A DNA stretch of 64,000 bases from Marinicella meishanensis. Its GTDB lineage: Bacteria > Pseudomonadota > Gammaproteobacteria > Xanthomonadales > Marinicellaceae. Below are positions 6,856 through 33,543 of this stretch, in pieces. Numbering within the stretch: the stretch's first letter is position 1; every line of letters begins with the position of its first letter. A model generated the notes under the pieces. It was not told the DNA's origin. It searched no databases and saw only the letters and a list, made by a program, of their open reading frames with translations. The translations under genes and the position numbers were made by a program. Location of the stretch: positions 62,001-126,000 of the forward strand of contig NZ_JAIOUV010000009.1 of assembly GCF_019931145.1 (NCBI RefSeq), read 5' to 3'.

Positions 6856-6867
6856 GACGGCGGGAAT

Positions 6868-6940
6868 TATGAAAGTGCTTCCTGCACTTTTACCCTTCGG
6901 GCTGCCTTCGGCATTCAAAAATGCTTTCCTGCATTTTTAG
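6868..6940 (-). repeat. Four-hairpin element E1 inside a duplicated tmRNA T-arm
   Basis: A 73-bp core of four consecutive hairpins on the + strand: AAAGTGC/GCACTTT (loop TTCCT), CCC/GGG (loop TTC), GCC/GGC (loop TTC), AAAAATGC/GCATTTTT (loop TTTCCT). Its flanks, GACGGCGGGAAT on the left and TCGAACCC(C)GCG on the right, are the T-arm of the nearby tmRNA split exactly in the T-loop. It lies behind the tmRNA terminator, in the same orientation as tmRNA. On the minus strand the outer loops read AGGAAA and AGGAA. It belongs to the same family as the elements at 29353-30314. Confidence 0.8.
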
Positions 6941-6990
6941 TCGAACCCCGCGTGGCGGTGGGTTCTATTCAAATCCGCCGGCTTCGCCAA

Positions 6991-7022: not shown

Positions 7023-7375
7023 TGGTGGAGACGGCGGGAATCGAACCCGCGTCCGCAAGCTCTCTGCTTGAGGCTCTACATGCTTAGTTTTGGCTTTTTA
7101 TCTTATGTTGGTAGCTCCGCCAATCAGGATTTACCAACACCAGTTCGGATTTGATTTAACCCAACGCATCCAAACGGTACGTTGAGCGATCTTGCTGGTT
7201 ATGACGGACAGTTCACGAACGCAAGAAATCGCGAGTGCCCGTTAGCAATTAAGCTGCTAAAGCGTAGTTATCGTCGTTTGCAACTATAACTTTGACACAG
7301 ATATTTACGAGGTTTATGTCGCCCTCGGCATGCACCATCAAGTTTCGCAACCCACGTCGAAGCCAGGTCGTCCCC
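7023..7375 (-). ncRNA. ssrA: Transfer-messenger RNA (tmRNA)
   Basis: One-piece tmRNA of 353 nt, which rescues stalled ribosomes together with SmpB. The 5' end GGGGAC pairs with GTCTCC before the 3' ACCA to form the acceptor stem; the T-arm reads GCGGGTTCGATTCCCGC. The tag reading frame is at 7249-7281 and encodes ANDDNYALAA followed by TAA, one residue different from the E. coli tag ANDENYALAA. A terminator lies directly downstream and an extended -10 promoter upstream. The 3' T-arm has been duplicated 70 bp downstream and there carries a four-hairpin element. Confidence 0.97.
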
Positions 7376-29244: not shown

Positions 29245-29352
29245 TCAAGGGTAGCGAATTATCTTGTTTTTTTTGATGCAAGTCAACAACTAATCATCGC
29301 TAATTTTTACAAGCCTGATTCAGCGCTTGAAATATGGCGGAACGTTCGGGAT

Positions 29353-29421
29353 GATTGAAAACCTCCTGTTTTCACCGCTGTGCGGCGCCTCCGGCGATAA
29401 AAAATGCTCCAAGCGTTTTTT
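29353..29421 (-). repeat. Four-hairpin element E2 in a tRNA-Ser-like 3' end
   Basis: A 69-bp core: GAAAAC/GTTTTC (loop CTCCT), CCGC/GCGG (loop TGT), CGCC/GGCG (loop TCC), AAAAAATGC/GCGTTTTTT (loop TCCAA, one G-T pair). The left flank at 29335-29352 resembles the tRNA-Ser 3' end, with both TGGCGGA (acceptor plus CCA) and GGGAT in place; the right flank TCGAACCTCG resembles its T-loop. It lies downstream of the intact tRNA-Ser in the same orientation. Confidence 0.75.
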
Positions 29422-29455
29422 TCGAACCTCGGCTTCTCAACCTTCGTGCTCCGTG

Positions 29456-29493
29456 ATATTTATTTCAGCCCGCTTTATGGGCTTAAATAAATA
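29456..29493 (-). terminator. Long hairpin directly after tRNA-Ser
   Basis: ATATTTATTTCAGCCC and GGGCTTAAATAAATAT arms with one mismatch around a 7-nt loop, beginning at the tRNA CCA end. It is a candidate terminator or processing signal between tRNA-Ser and the rest of the cluster. Confidence 0.55.
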
Positions 29494-29584
29494 TGGCGGA
29501 GAGTGAGGGATTCGAACCCTCGATGAGCTTTTAACCCATACTCCCTTAGCAGGGGAGCGCCTTCAGCCGCTCGGCCAACTCTCC
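29494..29584 (-). tRNA. tRNA-Ser (GCT), intact copy
   Basis: 91 nt with a long variable arm and encoded CCA. Starts GGAGAGTTGGCCGAGCGGC; the anticodon arm CTCCCCTGCTAAGGGAG carries GCT; T-arm GAGGGTTCGAATCCCTC. It is the only complete copy in the locus; four partial copies lie upstream on the same strand. A promoter-like TGGAAT-17 bp-TAAAAT lies at 29603-29631. Its place behind csrA matches the E. coli csrA-serV order. Confidence 0.96.
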
Positions 29585-29602
29585 AAATTCTTCAATTGCG
29601 GT

Positions 29603-29631
29603 ATTTTACTTGTTGCAAACACAAGATTCCA
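29603..29631 (-). promoter_or_regulatory. Predicted promoter of the intact tRNA-Ser
   Basis: Minus strand TGGAAT (29626-29631), 17 bp, TAAAAT (29603-29608), 19 bp before the mature 5' end. The same arrangement recurs at 29818-29846 and, as TGGAAC-17 bp-TAAAAT, at 30357-30385. The -35 is weak. Confidence 0.45.
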
Positions 29632-29655
29632 TCTGCGATGGAACGAGTTCGGGAT

Positions 29656-29726
29656 TTACAAAACACGTCCGGTGTTTTGCCCTTCGGGTCGCCTACGGCG
29701 ATCAAATTTGTTCCCGACAAATTTAG
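29656..29726 (-). repeat. Four-hairpin element E3a
   Basis: 71-bp core: AAAACAC/GTGTTTT (loop GTCCG), CCC/GGG (loop TTC), CGCC/GGCG (loop TAC), AAATTTGT/ACAAATTT (loop TCCCG). It is flanked by GGGAT on the left and TCGAACCC on the right, i.e. set into the tRNA-Ser T-loop. Minus-strand outer loops read CGGGA and CGGAC. Confidence 0.85.
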
Positions 29727-29799
29727 TCGAACCCTCGATGAGCTTTTAACCCATACTCCCTTAGCAGGGGAGCGCCTTCAGCCGCTCGGCCAACTCTCC
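29727..29799 (-). pseudogene. Partial tRNA-Ser (GCT), 5' 73 nt, T-loop interrupted
   Basis: Identical to the intact tRNA-Ser from base 1 to the T-loop TTCGA, then replaced by element E3a. It lacks an intact T-arm and acceptor 3' strand, so it cannot be charged unless the insert is removed. Confidence 0.85.
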
Positions 29800-29870
29800 A
29801 AATTCTTCAATTGCGGTATTTTACTTGTTGCAAACACAAGATTCCATCTGCGATGGAACGAGTTCGGGAT

Positions 29871-29941
29871 TTACAAAACACGTCCGGTGTTTTGCCCTTC
29901 GGGTCGCCTACGGCGATCAAATTTGTTCCCGACAAATTTAG
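29871..29941 (-). repeat. Four-hairpin element E3b
   Basis: An exact copy of E3a, 215 bp further on. Confidence 0.85.
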
Positions 29942-30014
29942 TCGAACCCTCGATGAGCTTTTAACCCATACTCCCTTAGCAGGGGAGCGCCTTCAGCCGC
30001 TCGGCCAACTCTCC
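29942..30014 (-). pseudogene. Partial tRNA-Ser (GCT), second 5' 73-nt copy
   Basis: Identical to the copy at 29727-29799. Its promoter-like sequence upstream is TTGAAT-17 bp-TAAATG (30030-30058), from the neighbouring 161-bp unit. Confidence 0.85.
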
Positions 30015-30083
30015 GAATTCATTTTCTGGCATTTACTAGACTTGTTCACCAGATTCAAGTGGCGCTCCCAATGGGAGGCGCCT

Positions 30084-30153
30084 TGTTCCGGGCTTCCTGC
30101 CCTTCACCCTAAAGGGTCCGCTTCGCGGGGCAAAAATGATCCCGTCATTTTTG
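30084..30153 (-). repeat. Four-hairpin element E4a
   Basis: 70-bp core: GGGC/GCCC (loop TTCCT), ACCCT/AGGGT (loop AA), CCGC/GCGG (loop TTC), CAAAAATGA/TCATTTTTG (loop TCCCG). It is flanked by GGGAGGCGCCT and TCAGCCGCTCGG, matching the tRNA-Ser D-arm/anticodon-arm boundary. Minus-strand outer loops read CGGGA and AGGAA. Confidence 0.85.
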
Positions 30154-30175
30154 TCAGCCGCTCGGCCAACTCTCC
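30154..30175 (-). pseudogene. 22-nt 5' fragment of tRNA-Ser
   Basis: Matches bases 1-22 of tRNA-Ser(GCT), then runs into element E4a within the D-arm. Confidence 0.75.
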
Positions 30176-30244
30176 GAATTCATTTTCTGGCATTTACTAG
30201 ACTTGTTCACCAGATTCAAGTGGCGCTCCCAATGGGAGGCGCCT

Positions 30245-30314
30245 TGTTCCGGGCTTCCTGCCCTTCACCCTAAAGGGTCCGCTTCGCGGGGCAAAAATGA
30301 TCCCGTCATTTTTG
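30245..30314 (-). repeat. Four-hairpin element E4b
   Basis: A copy of E4a, 161 bp further on, with identical hairpins. Confidence 0.85.
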
Positions 30315-30336
30315 TCAGCCGCTCGGCCAACCCTCC
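30315..30336 (-). pseudogene. 22-nt 5' fragment of tRNA-Ser, first in the array
   Basis: As the fragment at 30154-30175 but with GGAGGG in place of GGAGAG. It is the promoter-proximal end of the array. Confidence 0.75.
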
Positions 30337-30559: not shown

Positions 30560-30808
30560 TTATTGATTGCCTACGTTGTCGTCGTCAATTTCTGGTTGGT
30601 TGGCATTGCCATCATTGCCATCATTGCCATCATTACTGGTTGATTGCTCATTCTTGATGCGTTCATAAATTTCTTCGCGATGCACGGCAATCTCTTTCGG
30701 TGCATTGATCCCTATCCGCACTTGATTGCCTTTGATGCCCAATACTGTCACGGTCACATCATCACCAATCATCAAGGTTTCACCCACTCTTCTTGTTAAA
30801 ATTAACAT
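30560..30808 (-). CDS. csrA: Carbon storage regulator CsrA with Asn/Asp/Gly tail
   Basis: A small RNA-binding dimer that represses or stabilises mRNAs by binding GGA motifs in hairpin loops. The first 55 residues are canonical ([50 protein letters not shown]), including the RNA-contacting Arg44 region. At 82 aa it is longer than the usual 60-65. The extra tail holds a run [10 protein letters not shown] encoded by three 9-bp direct repeats, which can expand without a frameshift. AAGGAG precedes the ATG. It lies behind alaS and ahead of the tRNA-Ser array, whose hairpin loops carry GGA. Confidence 0.96.
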
Positions 30809-30921: not shown

Positions 30922-33543
30922 CTAATTTGATATATTGCCAGCCATCTCAGACAGGGTCTGCGCGATGGCATGCTTGATTTCGTCGTTTGAAGCCTCACCG
31001 CCACCTTGGGCAAAATCGGGTCTTCCGCCGCCGCGTCCTCCAATTTGTTCCAGCACGTGCTTGATCACATCACCGGCTTTCAGTTGTTTGGTCAGGGCCT
31101 TGGTCACACCGACCAACACCTGCACTTTGGGTCCGGTCACATTGGCCAGCACCACCAAGCCAAATTCAAATTGGCTCTTGAAACCGTCGATGGCGTCTCG
31201 CATGACCTCCAGATCTGAATTTTCCAGCACCTGACTCAAGACATGGATGCCATTGATGCTTTCAACCTGTTGTTGCAGGTCGCCCACAGACTCACTGGCC
31301 TGGGCTTTGTGCAAGTCACTCAACTCTTTTTCCAACTGTTTGTGTTGGTTAACCAAAGTTTCCACCGCGGTGAACACCTGGTCGGCTTTCACATTGAAAG
31401 TATGGCTCAATTGTTTCAGTTGCGATTCTTGGTTTTGCATCATCGCCAAAGCCGCGTCACCGGTCACCGCCTCAATGCGGCGAATCCCGGAAGCCACAGC
31501 CGCTTCGTAAGTGATTTTAAACAGGCCAATGTCACCGGTGCGGTTGACGTGGGTACCACCACACAATTCAACCGAAAAACCACCAAAATCCATGACCCTG
31601 ACTTGATCGCCGTACTTTTCACCGAACAAAGCCATGGCACCATAATCAATGGCTTGATCGTACGACATTTCAACATCTTTGGCGTGAAAATTTTGTCTGA
31701 TGGCGCGGTTCACTTCGGCTTCTATGGCCTGCAATTGTGCCAATGGAATGGGTTGGTCATGCGAAAAGTCAAAGCGCAATTTTTCGGCATTGACCAGCGA
31801 ACCTTTTTGTTGCACATGGGTGCCCAACACATCACGCAAAACTTTGTGCAATAAATGGGTGGCAGAATGATTGCGAATCACCTGTTGGCGGTGAGCCCCA
31901 TCGATCTCGGTTTGCACCGTGGCTGCCTGGGACAGGGTGCCTGACTGCACCGTCACTTGATGCAAATGAAATTGGCCAGCGGCTTTTTGTGTGTCGGTCA
32001 CTTGGGCGGTGAAACCGGATCCCTTGATGCTGCCGACATCACCCACTTGGCCTCCAGACTCGGCATAAAATGGGGTTTGGTCCAACACCACCACACCTTG
32101 GTCGCCCACCTGCAGTTGGTCCACGGGCTTGTTGTCTTGCAACAGCATGATCACTTGAGCGCTGCCTTGCTGTTGGTCATAGCCGGTGAATTCGGTCGGC
32201 GTCAGTGCCTTGATCACATCGGCAGAAATTTGATTGACTTGAGAGAATTGTTTGTTCGATTTGGACTGCGCTTTCTGTGCCTGCATGCAAGTGGCAAATG
32301 CCACTTCATCCACCACCCGGCCATCTTCTCTGGCCACATCTTGGGTCAGATCCAGAGGAAAGCCAAACGTGTCATACAGCTTGAAGGCCACCTCACCTGG
32401 CACCGCTTGCCCTGCAGGCAATTGGGCGGTGGCTTTGCGGTATTCTTGCATGCCCACATCCAAGGTATCGGAGAACTTCACTTCTTCTTTTTGCAAAGCC
32501 CCTTCAATGGCTGCTTGTTCGGACACCAACTCAGGGTAATCCTCACCCATGACCTCGATCAAGGGTTGGACCATGTGGTGGAAAAACAAGCCTTGGGCAC
32601 CCAATTTGTGCCCATGTCTGGCCGCCCGCCTGATGATGCGCCGGAGCACATAACCGCGGCCCTCATTGGAAGGCAACACGCCATCGGCAATCAAAAACGC
32701 ACAGGTGCGGATGTGGTCGGCAATCACTTTGAGTGAGGGGTTGGCCAAATCGCTGGCGCCAGTTAATGCGGCAGCGCGTTGGATCAGGTGTTGAAACAGA
32801 TCGATGTCGTAATTGTTGTGTTTGCCCTGCATGATGGAGGCGATGCGCTCCAGTCCCATGCCGGTATCCACACACGGACTGGGCAATGGTTCCAGGGTAC
32901 CATCGGCTTGCCGATCAAATTGCATGAACACCAGGTTCCAGATTTCAATGAAGCGGTCACCGTCTTCTTCTGGCGTCCCCGGCGGGCCGCCAGCAATGGC
33001 TTCACCGTGGTCATAAAAAATCTCGGTACAGGGCCCACATGGACCGGTGTCACCCATTTGCCAGAAATTGTCTTTGGCGCCGATGCGGGAAATCTTGTCA
33101 GCCGGAAAACCGATTTCATGTTCCCAAATGGCGGCGGCCTCATCGTCTTCTTCAAACACCGTGACCCACAATTTTTCCACCGGCAAGCCCAGTTCTTCAG
33201 TCAAAAAATCCCAGGCAAACTGAATCGCTTCGCGCTTGAAATAATCACCAAAGCTGAAATTACCCAGCATTTCGAAGAAAGTGTGATGTCTGGCGGTGTA
33301 TCCCACCTGGTCTAAGTCGTTGTGCTTGCCGCCGGCACGCACACAACGTTGGGACGATGCCGCCCGGGTATAAGCCCGTTTCTCGGCACCCAGAAACACG
33401 TCTTTAAACTGCACCATACCGGCGTTGACGAACAACAAAGTCGGATCATTGCCCGGAATCAACGAGCTGCTTTTCACAGCCTGGTGTTGATGCCGTTCAA
33501 AAAACTCAATGAATTTGGCCCTGATTTGTCTGGTCGATAACAT
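30922..33543 (-). CDS. alaS: Alanyl-tRNA synthetase
   Basis: An 873-aa class II synthetase (E. coli 876 aa) that charges tRNA-Ala and edits mischarged Ser/Gly. N-terminal catalytic core with RCVRAGGKHNDLDQVG and ARHHTFFEMLGNFSFGDYFK; editing domain with zinc ligands HSATHLLH and CGGTH (VELCGGTHVNRTGDIG); C-terminal oligomerisation domain with the glycine-rich GGRGGGRPDFAQGG. The alaS-csrA order is conserved in gammaproteobacteria. The csrA start is 113 bp behind it. Confidence 0.98.
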   Translation of the reverse strand: MLSTRQIRAKFIEFFERHQHQAVKSSSLIPGNDPTLLFVNAGMVQFKDVFLGAEKRAYTRAASSQRCVRAGGKHNDLDQVGYTARHHTFFEMLGNFSFGDYFKREAIQFAWDFLTEELGLPVEKLWVTVFEEDDEAAAIWEHEIGFPADKISRIGAKDNFWQMGDTGPCGPCTEIFYDHGEAIAGGPPGTPEEDGDRFIEIWNLVFMQFDRQADGTLEPLPSPCVDTGMGLERIASIMQGKHNNYDIDLFQHLIQRAAALTGASDLANPSLKVIADHIRTCAFLIADGVLPSNEGRGYVLRRIIRRAARHGHKLGAQGLFFHHMVQPLIEVMGEDYPELVSEQAAIEGALQKEEVKFSDTLDVGMQEYRKATAQLPAGQAVPGEVAFKLYDTFGFPLDLTQDVAREDGRVVDEVAFATCMQAQKAQSKSNKQFSQVNQISADVIKALTPTEFTGYDQQQGSAQVIMLLQDNKPVDQLQVGDQGVVVLDQTPFYAESGGQVGDVGSIKGSGFTAQVTDTQKAAGQFHLHQVTVQSGTLSQAATVQTEIDGAHRQQVIRNHSATHLLHKVLRDVLGTHVQQKGSLVNAEKLRFDFSHDQPIPLAQLQAIEAEVNRAIRQNFHAKDVEMSYDQAIDYGAMALFGEKYGDQVRVMDFGGFSVELCGGTHVNRTGDIGLFKITYEAAVASGIRRIEAVTGDAALAMMQNQESQLKQLSHTFNVKADQVFTAVETLVNQHKQLEKELSDLHKAQASESVGDLQQQVESINGIHVLSQVLENSDLEVMRDAIDGFKSQFEFGLVVLANVTGPKVQVLVGVTKALTKQLKAGDVIKHVLEQIGGRGGGRPDFAQGGGEASNDEIKHAIAQTLSEMAGNISN

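Follow-up and report, generated by a model that had tools for sequence, protein, structure and literature searches.

The window, a stretch of 64,000 nucleotides from Marinicella meishanensis, carries six copies of a four-hairpin element which, judged from sequence and predicted fold, are tRNA-linked repeats (TLRs), of one kind with RrA, RrB and RrF, the rrn sRNAs of E. coli. New on these grounds are that tRNA- and tmRNA-linked members keep two CsrA-type hairpins here and cluster at csrA, and that the TLR-type element ranges over the class and behaves as a small mobile element. We consider it probable that TLRs are what remains of such a mobile hairpin element and have been retained in stable-RNA operons as putative CsrA-binding RNAs. 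What was observed is a common core, GGA in the outer loops, copies of stable-RNA ends, linkage to csrA and one clean filled/empty site.

An earlier sequence-only reading of the window had named six copies (E1, E2, E3a/b and E4a/b). All were confirmed in the sequence, and R1, a covariance model of 13 sequences with T-loop flanks included, found exactly these six and no others over the window at E ≤ 0.01 (Table 1). They all lie on the minus strand, that of the tRNA-Ser and tmRNA genes, and the cores of E3a and E3b are identical, as are those of E4a and E4b. On this strand an A/T-rich hairpin and a second outer hairpin enclose two short ones in each copy. The four-hairpin plan of the earlier reading thus stood, but not all of its details: the A/T-rich loop of E1 has 6 nt, one inner hairpin of E4 has a tetraloop where mostly triloops had been described, and the A/T-rich stem of E2 carries one mismatch. 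The precise T-loop and D-loop sites that it claimed were borne out for the window copies: E2 and E3 follow GGTTCGA in T-loops of tRNA-Ser copies, E1 follows the same motif in a tmRNA copy and E4 follows GGCTGA in the D-loop of a tRNA-Ser copy. E1 sits in a T-arm copy beside the intact tmRNA gene, and other genomes have tmRNA-linked counterparts. The outer stem of the tRNA-like host of E2 is only partly paired (79% of cells in the alignment) and hence we do not claim a working acceptor stem for it. Two features were absent from the earlier reading: GGA in both outer loops of every window copy, on the RNA strand, and the neighbouring csrA gene.

Table 1. Element copies and neighbouring genes in the window
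Feature	Position	Strand	Remarks
E1 four-hairpin element	6862..6945	minus	tmRNA 3′ copy, T-loop; GGA loops AGGAAA, AGGAA
Intact tmRNA (ssrA), upstream of E1	7023..7375	minus	ARAGORN and Rfam RF00023
E2 host, shortened tRNA-like	29335..29452	minus	acceptor-like 5′ strand, T-arm, 3′ ...CCGCCA
E2 element	29348..29426	minus	T-loop, shortened tRNA-Ser copy; GGA loops TTGGA, AGGAG
Intact tRNA-Ser(GCT)	29494..29584	minus	
E3a element	29651..29731	minus	T-loop, tRNA-Ser 5′ copy; loops CGGGA, CGGAC
E3b, tandem copy of E3a	29866..29946	minus	215 bp apart
E4a element	30079..30158	minus	D-loop, tRNA-Ser 5′ copy, after GGCTGA; loops CGGGA, AGGAA
E4b, tandem copy of E4a	30240..30319	minus	161 bp apart
csrA, directly upstream of E4b	30560..30808	minus	Pfam PF02599, E 1.3e-26
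alaS	30922..33543	minus	gene order alaS-csrA-tRNA-Ser-tRNA-Arg

Five of the six window copies lie within the csrA-tRNA-Ser-tRNA-Arg locus. Immediately upstream of E4-E3-tRNA-Ser-E2 stands csrA, followed by alaS, and the order alaS-csrA-tRNA-Ser-tRNA-Arg is the same as in alaS-csrA-serV-argV of E. coli. Besides the window, csrA was present in the fetched stretch of 10 element-bearing loci of the genus (L088, L090-L094, L096, L098, L163 and L174), in 5 of 20 element loci from other families of the order and in 2 of 19 from the class sample. Two loci of named Marinicella, L009 and L021, have csrA and no element between tRNA-Ser and tRNA-Arg; in L012, E2 is absent from this position and the locus has two E4 copies instead. 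At 30600-30660 of the window a short tandem repeat encodes part of the CsrA C-terminal tail; it was not noticed in the printed csrA ends of relatives.

The proposal that the copies form one family with covarying stems held above chance on 13 aligned sequences (alignment A2). Fourteen of 23 pairs had changed on both sides, a number reached in 0 of 500 shuffles, and structures slid along the alignment gave 0-4 such pairs; the covariation value was 0.468, against 0.156 for shuffled alignments and at most 0.103 for slid structures. In alignment A5, for which long outer stems were the selection rule, 17 of 19 pairs had changed on both sides. Perfect DNA stems can, however, persist through template-switch correction without selection on an RNA.

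We then examined the GGA loops. Among 143 distinct R1 matches, a crude hairpin finder located GGA 126 times in the first loop and 133 times in the last (150 of 168 R1 matches were aligned for this count), a tally that is not independent since R1 and R2, the core-only model described below, were both trained on GGA-bearing copies. A fairer test of GGA conservation is the positional comparison of E2, which has orthologs in eight other genomes. In alignment A6, which covers the E2 position between tRNA-Ser and tRNA-Arg in these nine genomes and leaves out a tenth locus (L096), both GGA were invariant (9/9) while adjacent loop letters varied, and 13 of 38 pairs had changed on both sides; every E2 copy thus carries GGA in two hairpin loops, the minimum expected of a CsrA-binding sRNA. 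The locus left out (L096/L020, genome G008) is of E2 type and holds two consecutive elements, so that a single stretch carries four GGA hairpins. Of the 29 A5 sequences, 27 have CAGGANG at the second hairpin; selection for A5 required a 5-nt GGA loop but left the flanking C, A and G free. The repeat of CsrB is CAGGA(U/A/C)G (PMC7652899). GGA may also serve mobility, since it is kept in dispersed copies as well. Simpler searches were set aside: a generic scan for GGA hairpins was noisy, a plain ANGGA count (301 in the window, fewer than the 500 in shuffles) was uninformative on the copies, and a 12-base right-end pattern, of whose five forward matches two were unrelated to the element, had 0 matches in reverse and so fewer than its reversed control (9 forward, 2 reverse).

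A covariance-model search, as the sequence-only reading had proposed, found 22 copies with R1 at E ≤ 0.01 in the window's genome (G000; 3.99 Mb, 15 contigs). The trigger factor encoded there shares 85% identity with its counterpart in Marinicella marina X102, which marks a Marinicella-like gammaproteobacterium. Because R1 contains tRNA flanks, we built R2 from the core alone, using 29 sequences of same-order genomes with no tRNA flanks and no E. coli sequence; pairing of the first and fourth hairpins (H1/H4) was the rule for selecting its training set. R2 gave at least 22 matches in the same genome and, at E ≤ 0.01, at least 79 matches in at least 45 loci over four genomes. Among the matches listed, 42 of 79, at 18 of 45 loci, lay within 500 bp of a tRNA or tmRNA gene. 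This zone makes up about 1% of each genome (binomial P 5e-9, 8e-9, 3e-9 and 8e-3), so the link to tRNA is real. Enrichment was therefore as predicted, but the claim that all copies sit at tRNA or tmRNA was too strong: 27 of the 45 listed loci of the four genomes are elsewhere, a figure that includes copies at the tmRNA of genome G018, which could not be located. RNA-linked sites in the window's genome were tRNA-Ser (GCT, GGA and TGA), tRNA-Arg (TCG) and tmRNA. Two side observations concern this genome. One dispersed copy (L079, C8:354434) lies within a dense cluster of REP-like repeats. At 1670-2081 of L055 (C7:57670-58081) stand three consecutive tRNA-Gly-like genes with anticodon arms enlarged by about 50 bases each; they score 55-58 bits with Rfam and received no ARAGORN call.

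Beyond this genome, 31 of the family's 33 genomes gave R1 matches at E ≤ 0.01, as did 103 of 200 genomes of the order sample at E ≤ 1e-4. Twenty loci were taken from the order's other families and 16 of them hold a tRNA gene, though the 20 were picked among high scorers and the R1 flanks favour T-loop sites. With R2 at E ≤ 1e-6 the class sample gave matches in 123 of 369 genomes and 100 of 272 genera; among the 19 top loci outside the window's genome, 11 hold tRNA. By eye, the common class form reads GA/C-AAATCGCC-GGGA-GCGATTT, two short hairpins, GGGC-AGGAT-GCCC and GGAGTA/A (slashes mark the edges of the element). BLAST of one class copy (L209) matched 3542 of 5426 E. coli genomes, and the two matches that were opened both lay after 5S rRNA genes; it also matched 34 records among 72,556 from plasmids and 3 among 50,697 from phages. 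When the complete tRNA stretch was compared with plasmids by BLAST, 540 records matched in part, none of them offering a lead.

The earlier reading knew of no described repeat that targets tRNA loops in this way; the TLRs and the RrA, RrB and RrF sRNAs of E. coli had in fact been described. R2 matched rrnA, rrnB and rrnD of MG1655 (4.7e-15 each), which rules out an element wholly unlike anything known, and gave no match at E ≤ 0.1 on the fetched ends of rrnC, rrnE, rrnG and rrnH. According to PMC8144298, RrA, RrB and RrF are encoded between terminators T1 and T2 of rrnA, rrnB and rrnD and belong to the TLR family, described since 1978 and with 22 members in K-12. The same account reports that RrB binds CsrA (MS2 pull-down and EMSA, KD about 100 nM), that RrB with three GGA motifs changed gave no EMSA shift, that the other 19 K-12 TLRs have a predicted CsrA-binder score below 0.01 and that the phenotypes of the Rr sRNAs are modest and partly contradictory. 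The rrnB copy lies inside a duplicate of the 5S 3′ end (GTAGGA/../AACTGCCAGGCATCAAAT), at the matching point. The Marinicella copies share with RrA, RrB and RrF the four-hairpin core, two GGA hairpin loops, a presumed tie to stable-RNA transcription and, in part of the copies, a site after ..GA within a copied 3′ end of the RNA gene upstream. They differ in being linked to tRNA-Ser, tRNA-Arg and tmRNA, often in tandem, in adjoining csrA for five of the six window copies, and in including D-loop copies and copies upstream of an intact tRNA. RrA, RrB and RrF are reported for Enterobacteriales (PMC8144298).

As regards TLRs in general, each window copy lies beside an RNA gene, five adjoining tRNA-Ser and E1 tmRNA. 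A 3′-terminal identity of 18-19 bp with the RNA gene upstream was found in the E2 orthologs of 7 genomes (ATCCCTCACTCTCCGCCA); it is not exact in the window E2, L089 and E1, and E3 and E4 lie in 5′ copies instead. In part, the copies resemble TLRs and rttR, in which the repeat follows a tRNA and ends in a sequence copied from that tRNA's 3′ terminus; rttR is likewise set in the T-loop of a tRNA-Tyr copy (TTCGA/..GAGTA/ATCC). Besides the 5′ tRNA copies of E3 and E4, they differ in the GGA loops, which are missing from the three K-12 tRNA TLRs inspected (one rttR unit, argV-argY and argZ-argQ, the latter two forming the arg cluster beside csrA); these keep the inner hairpins and the GAGTA/ATCC end. 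Because 19 TLRs are predicted below 0.01 and these three are without GGA loops, CsrA binding is not general to TLRs. In direct comparison, R1 scored only 9.8-13.0 bits on rttR and found no match at E ≤ 1 in the K-12 arg cluster, the RtT model (RF00391) scored 31.1 bits on the E2 ortholog L088, below its 45-bit gathering threshold, and an Rfam search of the window gave no RtT match. A literature search on rtT RNA with tyrT found nothing.

How the element spreads was approached through filled and empty sites. In genome G013 a second element lies inside an IS5-like MITE (L114), copies of which in G012 are empty at the same point (CTTGCC/AATAACAGG; L124-L126 and L128-L130); in this one pair compared, the insertion was clean, with no target duplication. 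The MITE, named from ends like GAGACCTCTGCATAAGTC, carries the element at L114, L124-L126, L128-L130, L135-L137 and L149-L151. In these copies the letter before the second-loop GGA varies and GGA is constant, and the first stem of L128 and L129 departs from that of the other copies in both of its arms at once. The window's genome has a Y1-transposase gene broken by two inverted elements, one placed after TTTATGA and the other after TTCCCA, and large Y1-transposase genes are interrupted at several points in several genomes (L077 1049-2122, L133, L111 and L115). Together, the MITE site and the insertions in Y1 genes show an element that apparently moves alone. It seems to sit mostly after GA (TTCGA of T-loops): (G/C)A preceded the A-run in 193 of 213 distinct matches, with GA in 153 and TCGA in 84, as counted by a regular expression with no shuffled control. 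Most likely it would have spread as DNA, as a small non-autonomous element via single-stranded DNA in the manner of IS200/IS605, a model that would fit its end hairpins, lack of duplication and fixed point after (G/C)A; T-loops (TTCGA/AT) would then be frequent targets.

The suggestion of a RAYT transposase fared poorly. The genome holds three Pfam Y1_Tnp matches, none near an R2 match. The interrupted large Y1 gene resembles, by assignment from motifs, TnpA-Y1 subclass 2.3, which PMC6006769 describes as a 325-aa protein with WE and YVDLNP motifs and with no REP known. Of three genome matches to the large Y1 protein, the one on C12 holds copies and the two others (C7:341085 and C10:468659) have no R2 match beside them. 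Among 200 order genomes, assuming that the same genomes were drawn for both searches (their handles agree), 47 had element and large Y1, 56 the element alone, 31 Y1 alone and 66 neither (p 0.06); without the window's family the counts were 22, 51, 30 and 64 (p 0.87). Thus RAYT was set aside as mobiliser, its matches being away from the copies and the large Y1 gene not co-occurring outside the family, and these searches found no mobilising enzyme. With REP/REPIN and IS200/IS605 non-autonomous elements the copies share short hairpins, clean insertion (one pair) and copies within Y1 genes. They differ from REP/RAYT systems in being, by eye, without the GTAG or CGTC foot that defines REPs (PMC3733652), in beginning C?(T/A)AAA after (G/C)A, in having four hairpins with GGA loops, and in that no RAYT is flanked by copies in this genome.

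Four-hairpin copies beside csrA suggest a putative growth-linked CsrA decoy RNA. The CsrA dimer has two RNA-binding surfaces. The element would be transcribed with tRNA and tmRNA genes and its RNA released by processing of the tRNA/rRNA type; each RNA would offer two hairpin GGA sites, which one CsrA dimer could hold, and would thereby titrate CsrA in step with stable-RNA transcription. Copies adjoining csrA would couple the regulator with its decoy. Compared by motif alone, the element is akin to the CsrB, CsrC and RsmZ sRNAs in having GGA in hairpin loops and the CAGGANG motif; it differs in having only two sites per unit and in being set into stable-RNA copies. The elements would be extra sponges at most, since the genome also holds a CsrB-like candidate (L063, C7:232421-232732, minus strand), which scores 24 bits against an Rfam CsrB cut-off of 71 and has 20 GGA in the surrounding 470 nt. 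A literature search on CsrA in Marinicella found nothing.

The copies might instead be a selfish hairpin element and nothing else, with GGA as recognition letters of a transposase, tRNA loops as frequent target words (TCGA/A) and the CsrA binding seen in E. coli as a by-product. GGA kept in copies within the IS5-like MITE and the Y1 genes would fit, as would the clean filled/empty pair and the many same-score copies scattered in some genomes (G320 and G444). We find it unlikely, as GGA persists alongside compensatory stem changes in the positional orthologs at csrA-tRNA-Ser of nine genomes, the E. coli copy is reported to bind CsrA via GGA (PMC8144298) and no Y1 gene co-occurs outside the family.

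A role confined to stable-RNA operons, in which the hairpins and the copied 3′ end act as spacer or guide RNase E/P cleavage or termination and have nothing to do with CsrA, could draw on the copied 3′ end of RrB, a proposed RNase E signal (PMC8144298), and on the E2 orthologs, which end in tRNA 3′ sequence with CCA in 7 of 8 other genomes. But it leaves the invariant outer-loop GGA and the csrA link unexplained and does not account for the listed loci away from RNA genes; we judge it quite improbable. Removal as RNA from a tRNA or mRNA, as by an intron, would agree with the precise loop positions and with a single insertion that preserves the reading frame of the L077 Y1 gene. Intact tRNA and tmRNA genes stand beside the window copies, however, the host tRNA copies are shortened and some interrupted Y1 genes look decayed (L133 and L155), hence introns were set aside as barely credible.

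The mobile element kept as a putative CsrA-binding RNA suggests an origin for TLRs, insertion of a small element after GA, and suggests that having CsrA-type hairpins is the common, and probably the ancestral, condition and that the inspected E. coli tRNA copies have lost them. Tentatively, and with a little less than even confidence, we extend this to TLRs as a class: they would be resident, decaying copies of a transposable regulatory RNA of about 70 nt with its own CsrA-binding hairpins, preferring the loops of tRNA, tmRNA and 5S gene copies and wiring CsrA to stable-RNA transcription across Gammaproteobacteria, with working copies in E. coli only in rrnA, rrnB and rrnD. The E. coli copy is itself part of the rrnB T1-T2 block of many cloning vectors (PMC8144298). 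The old puzzle of the TLRs thus becomes testable in marine bacteria, where a regulator of carbon use would be tied to tRNA and rRNA output.
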